Below are positions 658-28,615 of a stretch of DNA of 64,000 bases, piece by piece. The stretch is from assembly GCF_011082085.1 (NCBI RefSeq), contig NZ_CP041063.1, positions 496,001 to 560,000 of the forward strand, read 5' to 3'. The stretch's first letter is position 1, and each line of letters starts with the position of its first letter. A model generated the notes under the pieces. It searched no databases. It was given only the letters and a program-made list of their open reading frames with translations, and was not told the origin of the DNA. A program made the translations under genes and the position numbers. Source of the stretch: Bacillus sp. Cs-700. GTDB lineage: Bacteria; Bacillota; Bacilli; Bacillales; Guptibacillaceae.

Positions 658-699
658 TTGAATTTTATATTCTTAGCTGGTATATTAGTAACATATACC
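658..699 (+). promoter_or_regulatory. Promoter with overlapping inverted repeat, upstream of the c-di-GMP riboswitch
   Basis: TTGAAT (658-663) and TATATT (681-686) are separated by 17 bases, a SigA-type promoter. A 7-bp inverted repeat, GGTATAT at 679-685 and ATATACC at 693-699, straddles the -10 box and expected start site and could be a repressor site. Transcription would begin near 693, about 90 bases before the aptamer. The rest of the stretch 503-657 shows nothing I recognise apart from the presumed upstream region of the minus-strand small ORF. Confidence 0.6.
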
Positions 700-782: not shown

Positions 783-891
783 TTCTCCAGATAAGGGCAA
801 ACCATTCTAAAGAATGGGACGCAAAGACACAGGTCTAATGTTGGGTCACCAACGATGACGGCTGGTCCTCCTGGAAACCCGATAAGGAGGA
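783..891 (+). promoter_or_regulatory. Cyclic-di-GMP riboswitch, class I (GEMM-I), with SD-sequestering platform
   Basis: The core matches the class I c-di-GMP aptamer: GGGCAAACC (795-803), a 6-bp hairpin closing on a TAAA loop, the invariant GGGACGCAAAG (816-826), then AGGTCTAATG, an internal hairpin GTTGG/CCAAC around GTCA (840-853) and ATGACGGCTGG. A closing helix P1 can form between TCCAG (786-790) and CTGGA (871-875). A competing 7-bp helix pairs TCCTCCT (866-872) with AGGAGGA (885-891), which is the ribosome-binding site of the next ORF. Bases 871-872 are used by both helices, so ligand-stabilised P1 should weaken SD sequestration. From that I infer a translational ON switch. Motif identity is strong; the direction of control is inference. 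Confidence 0.87.
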
Positions 892-898
892 GAAAAGA

Positions 899-1051
899 AT
901 GACCATGGCAGAGATTAAGCCTAAGAATGTACTGGATCAAGAATGGGTTATTCTAATGAGGGCTGCCCGTGAACTTGGACTACAGAAGGAAGAGGTAAGG
1001 TCATTCTTGAGACAAGACAATAAACCGACATCTATGAATGTACATAAATGA
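899..1051 (+). CDS. SinI-like anti-repressor, 50 aa
   Basis: Fifty codons start at ATG 899, eight bases after GGAGG (886-890) embedded in the riboswitch platform. Residues 12-28 (L-D-Q-E-W-V-I-L-M-R-A-A-R-E-L-G-L), then Q-K-E-E-V-R-S-F-L, reproduce the SinI dimerisation segment; Bacillus subtilis SinI has the same L-D-Q-E-W-V-x-L-M pattern. No DNA-binding helix-turn-helix precedes it, so this is an antagonist rather than a SinR repressor. Members of this family sequester SinR and de-repress biofilm matrix genes. No sinR is in this window, so the partner must lie elsewhere. It forms a monocistronic unit with its own promoter, riboswitch and terminator. Confidence 0.85.
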   Translation: MTMAEIKPKNVLDQEWVILMRAARELGLQKEEVRSFLRQDNKPTSMNVHK

Positions 1052-1052
1052 T

Positions 1053-1079
1053 GAACGGCCTATGAGGTCGTTCTTTTTC
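1053..1079 (+). terminator. Terminator of the sinI-like transcript
   Basis: An 8-bp stem (1053-1060 with 1066-1073, one G-U pair) and a 5-base loop are followed by TTTTT, directly after the stop codon. Confidence 0.85.
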
Positions 1080-1090
1080 TAGGTTAATCC

Positions 1091-4963: not shown

Positions 4964-5866
4964 TTGCCCAAACCTGTTAAGAACTTCATAGAAGTGTTTA
5001 AGAAATTCGAAAAACTTTCTTTCTGAAGGGGCTAGTTCTCTTCCTTGAGGAATAATGACGCCCACAGTCCTTGTCACGTTGGGCTCTGATAATTCAATTT
5101 TTACTGTTTCACCAGGCAACTGTTCTGAAAGTGTTATTTCAGGTAAGAGACTTACACCTAATCCTGCTGCTACAAGCCCCTTAATCGTATCAATATCTTC
5201 CCCTTCAAATGCAATCCGAGGTTTAAAACCAACCTGCTGACATGCTGATGTAACTAAATGATGAAGCGCATAGCCTGAACGAAATAAAACAAATGGTTCA
5301 TTCTTCAATTGCCCTAGTCTCAACATTGGATAATCCGCTAACTCGTGTGAGATTGGTAGAAGAGCGAGTAGTTTTTCAGTGAAAAAGATGTGGCCTTCAA
5401 CATCTGTTCGATCTTTTGGTACTGGAGATACGAAGGCAATATCGATTTCTCCTTTGCTGACAGCATCCGTCAGATCTTGCACAGATCCTTGCCTTAATTG
5501 AAATCCAACGCTTGGATGCTCTTTACGAAACGCTGAGATAACAGTAGGTAGCGTTTTGGCGGCTAAACTGTTCGGAAAGCCGATACGGATTGTTCCGGTG
5601 TCTGGATTAAGAAATTCATAGACTGCTTGTCTCGCACGTTCAATTTCTGAAATGGCTGTCTCGGCGTGATCCATAAATATTTGTCCAACTTGAGTTAACT
5701 TTACATTTCTCCCTTCCCGAATAAATAATTGTACGCCAAGTTCCGATTCAAGATTGGCGATTTGTCGACTTACAGCTGATTGAGCAACGTGAAGAGAAGT
5801 AGCTGCTGCTGTAACATGTTCTCTTTTTGCAACTTCCATAAAATAATATAACTGCCTAAGTTCCAT
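4961..5866 (-). CDS. gltC: LysR-family activator of glutamate synthase
   Basis: A 301-residue LysR regulator with an N-terminal winged helix-turn-helix (M-E-L-R-Q-L-Y-Y-F, then A-A-A-T-S-L-H-V-A-Q-S-A-V-S-R-Q-I) and a C-terminal effector domain (F-V-S-P-V-P-K-D, A-G-L-G-V-S-L-L-P-E). Divergent placement against gltAB and the N-terminal sequence identify it as GltC, the activator of gltAB that responds to 2-oxoglutarate and glutamate in B. subtilis. The start at 5866 has AAGGGAGA upstream; an in-frame ATG at 5893 lacks a ribosome-binding site. As in B. subtilis the two genes share one regulatory region. Confidence 0.93.
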   Translation of the reverse strand: MELRQLYYFMEVAKREHVTAAATSLHVAQSAVSRQIANLESELGVQLFIREGRNVKLTQVGQIFMDHAETAISEIERARQAVYEFLNPDTGTIRIGFPNSLAAKTLPTVISAFRKEHPSVGFQLRQGSVQDLTDAVSKGEIDIAFVSPVPKDRTDVEGHIFFTEKLLALLPISHELADYPMLRLGQLKNEPFVLFRSGYALHHLVTSACQQVGFKPRIAFEGEDIDTIKGLVAAGLGVSLLPEITLSEQLPGETVKIELSEPNVTRTVGVIIPQGRELAPSERKFFEFLKHFYEVLNRFGQ

Positions 5867-28502: not shown

Positions 28503-28529
28503 AGGTAAGTACTAACTAAATCAATTTTC

Positions 28530-28599
28530 ACTCGTATATTCTCAGAAATATGGTCTGAGCGTTTCTACCCGGTTCCCGCTAAAGTACTGGACTACGAGT
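28530..28599 (+). promoter_or_regulatory. Purine riboswitch aptamer, guanine type
   Basis: P1 is formed by ACTCGTA (28530-28536) and TACGAGT (28593-28599). P2 uses CTCAG/CTGAG and contains the conserved ATATGG loop. The junction TTTCTACC is intact, and P3 uses CCGGT/ACTGG. The discriminator in G-A-C-T-A is C, the guanine/hypoxanthine-type base (adenine aptamers have T). This is the standard xpt-class aptamer. The switch controls a lipoprotein nucleosidase gene 245 bases further on. Confidence 0.95.
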
Positions 28600-28615
28600 T
28601 GAAGTATGCTGATAA

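Follow-up and report, generated by a model that had tools for sequence, protein, structure and literature searches.

The standard teaching on Bacillus biofilms is a protein pathway from Spo0A through SinI to SinR: SinI proteins switch off the biofilm repressor SinR, and in B. subtilis sinI is itself controlled by Spo0A. Cyclic di-GMP (c-di-GMP) is the main biofilm messenger elsewhere; to our knowledge, no clear, direct route from it to SinR has so far been described. A c-di-GMP riboswitch on sinI would, if true, supply such a route in a single step that needs no protein receptor.

The published case nearest to the locus described here is one entry, '(c-di-GMP)-sinI', for Bacillus methanolicus MGA3 (Irla et al., 2015; PMC4342826, Table 4), where a putative c-di-GMP riboswitch likewise lies in the sinI 5' UTR. 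It is an RNA-seq annotation line, given without a platform, conservation, a second unit or a test; it nevertheless means that an initial sequence-only reading of this DNA, which knew of no described sinI-like gene under a c-di-GMP riboswitch, was not strictly correct on this point. Riboswitches Bc1–Bc5 of the B. cereus group (PMC11218506, PMC4759541, PMC7423583) share the c-di-GMP-I aptamer class and serve surface and motility targets, structural or chemotaxis genes, mainly via transcription terminators; unlike these, the platform described here is predicted to hide the Shine–Dalgarno sequence (SD) of an anti-repressor gene. In B. thuringiensis, sinI is upregulated at high c-di-GMP, without a riboswitch there (Fagerlund et al.). 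No other prior report linking a c-di-GMP riboswitch with sinI was found in the literature searched, from which subscription journals were mostly absent. Each part of the system is known. What appears to be undescribed is its breadth, the presence of two units in Guptibacillus and the SD-hiding logic that the leaders share.

A class I c-di-GMP aptamer upstream of a SinI-family gene

The window (the whole stretch of 64,000 nucleotides analysed) comes from a genome of the genus Guptibacillus. Rfam covariance search gave a full-length RF01051 alignment (model positions 1–87) with 66.9 bits, where the gathering score is 35, and E 6.6e-11; in a relaxed scan, c-di-GMP-I over the same bases was again the sole overlapping family (Table 1). 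The class I aptamer proposed in the sequence-only reading is thus borne out, and its covariance score, a low value of which that reading had named as evidence against it, is well over the gathering score. Its position 5' of the SinI gene also stands, but it does not extend to 891: the aptamer ends at 874 with P1 closing at 875, and the distance to the start codon is not nine bases but a linker of 24 nt (875–898) with a strong SD inside. Bases equivalent to G20, A47 and C92, ligand contacts in the Vc2 numbering, are present in the alignment as in canonical c-di-GMP binders; c-di-GMP is the ligand expected from the aptamer class.

Table 1. Features of the riboswitch–SinI unit, in window positions
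Feature	Position	Strand	Basis or remark
Predicted sigma-A promoter, -35 TTGAAT (658–663), extended -10 TG-g-TATATT (681–686)	658–686	+	Consensus scan
Alternative anti-SD UUCUCC, P1 5' side, partner of 889–894	783–788	+	Folding
Class I c-di-GMP riboswitch aptamer	786–874	+	RF01051 66.9 bits
P1 5' strand UCCAG	786–790	+	Partner 871–875; kept in nearly all genus leaders
Anti-SD UCCUCCU, partner of 885–891 with P1 open	866–872	+	Folding
P1 3' strand CUGGA, overlapping anti-SD	871–875	+	Leader stem search and folding
SD AGGAGGA of SinI gene	885–891	+	Sequence and folding
SinI-family anti-repressor gene, 50 aa	899–1051	+	Pfam SinI 42.1 bits; dN/dS
Intrinsic terminator, 9-bp stem then TTTTTCT	1053–1080	+	Closes short transcript

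The gene downstream encodes a short stand-alone protein of 50 amino acids, with an alternative in-frame ATG at 905. It matches Pfam SinI (PF08671; 42.1 bits, cut-off 31.4) over residues 12–38, so that the family named in the sequence-only reading was right and the extent given for it (residues 12–28) was too short; the SinI core LDQEWV..L is intact. A PDB profile search with this protein and its relatives had B. subtilis SinI as its top matches (1b0n_B and 5tmx), 1b0n being the closest solved relative. By comparison, the NCBIfam SinI equivalog model NF046031 scored 34.8 bits, below its cut-off of 80, and the protein would accordingly be classed as a member of the SinI-domain family and not as the equivalog of B. 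subtilis SinI. Median dN/dS within the genus is about 0.19 (72 usable genome pairs): the reading frame is under purifying selection and coding constraint. Examined with the two-helix hook of the SinI family in mind, an AlphaFold2 model has helices at residues 9–25 and 30–40 (pLDDT 74); a Foldseek search with this very short model gave no PDB match.

We looked for a terminator between aptamer and ATG and found none. The gene has its own terminator and a promoter-like site upstream, the latter kept as a block in most of the 14 genus genomes, and the single short transcript that had been proposed agrees with both predicted features. Two other RNA leaders were seen in the window: a T-box leader 5' of glycyl-tRNA synthetase (1147–1323; 80.6 bits, just under the Rfam gathering score of 93) and a purine riboswitch aptamer (28512–28614; 76.4 bits).

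Two riboswitch–SinI units in Guptibacillus

The genome contains four c-di-GMP-I aptamers, two of which are immediately 5' of SinI genes. The second such unit lies at the sin locus, where the aptamer (C1:2378591–2378687) directly precedes a 39-aa SinI gene. Downstream of this gene come a terminator-like hairpin and a 111-aa SinR gene, in that order. Both units are carried by 14/14 genomes of the genus and this, together with the share of aptamers placed before SinI genes, indicates that the pairing is more than chance. One window-type leader (genome G006, L035) has two mismatches that disrupt P1, with anti-SD and SD kept. Eight GGDEF-domain proteins are encoded in the genome, which can therefore probably make c-di-GMP. 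Away from SinI genes, c-di-GMP-I aptamers were also seen 5' of a 45-aa protein with a single membrane helix and no Pfam match (L015:1136-1407), and 5' of a 300-aa protein with no Pfam or NCBIfam match and an N-terminal hydrophobic stretch (L014:1086-2110).

Five proteins in the genome exceed the SinI-domain cut-off: three stand-alone SinI-like proteins and two SinR proteins. The SinR homologue that the sequence-only reading had called for is therefore present twice, as proteins of 111 and 113 aa that each combine HTH_3 and SinI domains; in this the genome resembles B. subtilis, in whose sinI–sinR system a SinI-domain anti-repressor likewise faces a SinR of this domain make-up. SinI–SinR binding, and a regulon behind it, are predicted for the source strain. 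The third SinI-like gene (L013:5319-5441, minus strand), which has no riboswitch, is near the second unit and beside the second sinR (113 aa).

With three SinI-like and two SinR-like proteins available, the 50-aa protein might have a different partner, either an SlrR-like protein or a particular one of the two SinRs, and its output might then not be general matrix de-repression. The window gene is an orphan, its riboswitch–SinI unit not being adjacent to any sinR, and for both SinRs the best NCBIfam model is SlrR, at scores far under its cut-off. Against this, the second unit is placed directly 5' of sinR, about half of such units across the order adjoin SinR (see below), and the core of the window protein is unaltered; we regard a different partner as doubtful, while giving it more weight than the other alternatives considered here, and retain SinR as the likelier target.

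Riboswitch–SinI units across Bacillales

The order was searched with a composite pattern that joins an aptamer core, an SD and a SinI core at set distances. It matched at least 77 of 397 sampled genomes and at least 34 of 135 genera, and a reversed-pattern control on the same sample gave 0 matches; as only 8/14 known second-unit leaders of the genus were recovered by the pattern, these order-wide counts are lower bounds. At least 118 stretches were matched in named genomes, and among the 118 listed, 102 contain an ORF that scored >25 bits against a SinI HMM made from sequences of the genus alone; the remainder look like chance matches, several of them from unrelated phyla. All 18 diverse test ORFs, the window's included, matched Pfam SinI. 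In a separate 71-genome sample of the order, the aptamer was found in at least 62 and SinI in 45, the overlap being a lower bound.

The possibility that a riboswitch for something else simply adjoins a spurious small ORF has in its favour that the ORF is short. Both families score over curated cut-offs, the ORF is under purifying selection and the pair is conserved throughout the genus; recurrence across the order, with zero matches in the control, refutes coincidence and leaves it a negligible probability.

SinR adjoins SinI in 62/132 units, a set in which some species are counted in both source sets: it is just downstream on the same strand in 43 and convergent in 19. These are genuine sin loci and not stray SinI domains.

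Rfam placed an aptamer where expected at 18/18 loci, 12 matching c-di-GMP-I best and 6 the sister model of the same clan, c-di-GMP-I-GGC. Variants of class I with altered specificity exist (PMC7266159), and the GGC matches among related leaders could be taken to mean that the window aptamer senses another cyclic dinucleotide such as c-AMP-GMP. The canonical G20 and A47 are kept in the window, though, the genome has the GGDEF domains described above, and one aligned GGC-labelled leader carries A at the position of a G in the GGC model (all pattern-selected leaders have this A by construction). On the basis of that single leader the GGC label was not taken to point to a different ligand, and c-di-GMP is kept as the working assumption; sensing of a different dinucleotide seems to us very unlikely.

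The interpretation given in the sequence-only reading is largely supported, and is general rather than local. The pairing looks like a common connection from c-di-GMP to the control of biofilms, and one that has drawn almost no remark. More broadly, direct c-di-GMP control of SinI translation may be a main, widespread setting of the SinR switch in Bacillales, possibly older or commoner than control of sinI by Spo0A as in B. subtilis, with some lineages, Guptibacillus among them, running two c-di-GMP-gated SinI genes against two SinRs; we consider the case for this evenly balanced. An RF01051 search of B. subtilis, included as a control, gave no match, and the leaders would allow one to ask why that species is without such a riboswitch.

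Leader folding and the direction of the switch

In the window leader the 3' strand of P1 shares bases with the anti-SD, coupling the expression platform to P1. In the predicted ensemble without ligand the SD is paired and P1 is open (P1 probability 0), with a pairing probability of about 0.5–0.73 for the UCCUCCU anti-SD and the SD. Closure of P1, when imposed on the model, has a cost of about 5–6 kcal/mol and raises SD accessibility to about 0.5 only, so that the predicted swing is moderate; with a shorter leader segment the direction is unchanged and the balance between the two anti-SDs differs. In the second unit, folding without forcing leaves the SD almost wholly paired with the 5' strand of P1, and forced P1 frees it to 0.6–0.8 in most genomes. 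The alternative anti-SD of the window thus lies on the same (5') side of P1 as the anti-SD that dominates in the second unit.

A third platform design is dominant across the order (CCUGAAAUAC...GUAUUUUAGG(AGG)), and here the 3' strand of P1 forms half of the SD-hiding stem. In 83/120 unique anchored leaders a stem that sequesters the SD overlaps the 3' strand of P1, and in 74 of these it is at least 7 bp long. P1 partners paired better than permuted partners in 1000/1000 permutations, with C–G/U–A exchanges seen, and forced P1 raised SD accessibility in 68/72 leaders (median 0.26 to 0.66). Several distant leaders have no recognisable P1 or SD stem. By covariation and folding, P1 and the anti-SD/SD helix are mutually exclusive.

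As there is no terminator between aptamer and ATG, control is most simply translational; and as the SD-sequestering helix competes with P1, c-di-GMP should switch SinI translation ON. With the parts of the unit in place and conserved, and the SinI gene constrained, we think it probable that a translation-level, c-di-GMP-ON riboswitch makes a SinI-family anti-repressor and so connects the SinR switch directly to c-di-GMP. With no c-di-GMP bound, P1 would be open and the anti-SD (UCCUCCU, or UUCUCC on the 5' side) would cover the SD, with little SinI made; binding of c-di-GMP would close P1, drawing bases from the anti-SD and leaving the SD free for translation of SinI, which would then bind the C-terminal domain of SinR and so derepress matrix genes, probably those for exopolysaccharide.

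The ON direction is inferred from folding models. Among known c-di-GMP-I riboswitches there are both ON and OFF types, and a B. thuringiensis example is described as an off switch. If the window riboswitch were of the OFF type, c-di-GMP would lower SinI and SinR would stay active; the SD that is still about half paired under forced P1 fits such a reading. An OFF switch is unlikely given that the SD-blocking stem competes with P1 in most leaders, via two or three anti-SD designs, and that ON is the sign expected if biofilm is favoured by c-di-GMP. The leaders yield testable predictions for the ON switch, including P1 versus anti-SD mutants, in culturable bacteria.

Exopolysaccharide as a candidate output

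A family search for which B. subtilis served as positive control found no TasA-family protein in the genome, and for this reason the matrix here is probably exopolysaccharide; the matrix de-repression envisaged in the sequence-only reading would thus probably concern exopolysaccharide. Exopolysaccharide operons are marked by two epsC (EAR) RNA elements. Upstream of the Wzz-type first gene of one EAR-marked operon is a SinR-box-like palindrome, TTGACATGTTCTTTATATAGAAC, beside a -35 hexamer TTGACA; the eps-promoter DNA of the source genome contains GTTCTTTATATAGAAC. The eps-operon box is present in 6/14 genus genomes, in four of them 5' of an epsA-like (Wzz-type) gene. A one-mismatch copy of the palindrome lies 5' of the Wzz-type gene in an EAR-bearing eps operon of Pseudalkalibacillus caeni, and this operon adjoins the riboswitch–sinI–sinR unit of that species.

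A genome-wide scan for SinR-type palindromes, allowing two mismatches, gave 96 sites, hardly more than the 63 in the reversed control, and does not by itself define a regulon; the longer eps-promoter motif is more informative, yet patchy. Together the box data support, and do not prove, exopolysaccharide as the output of the SinI/SinR circuit.

Perfect SinR-type palindromes were found at only two sites in the genome. One such palindrome, AAAGAACgttttGTTCTTT, is 5' of the third SinI-like gene (L013 about 5484–5502); both this and the eps palindrome resemble the SinR box known from the literature. A Spo0A-box-like 9-mer, TTTGTCGAA, lies about 20 nt 5' of sinR1 (L013 about 4415) and is present in many genomes of the genus.
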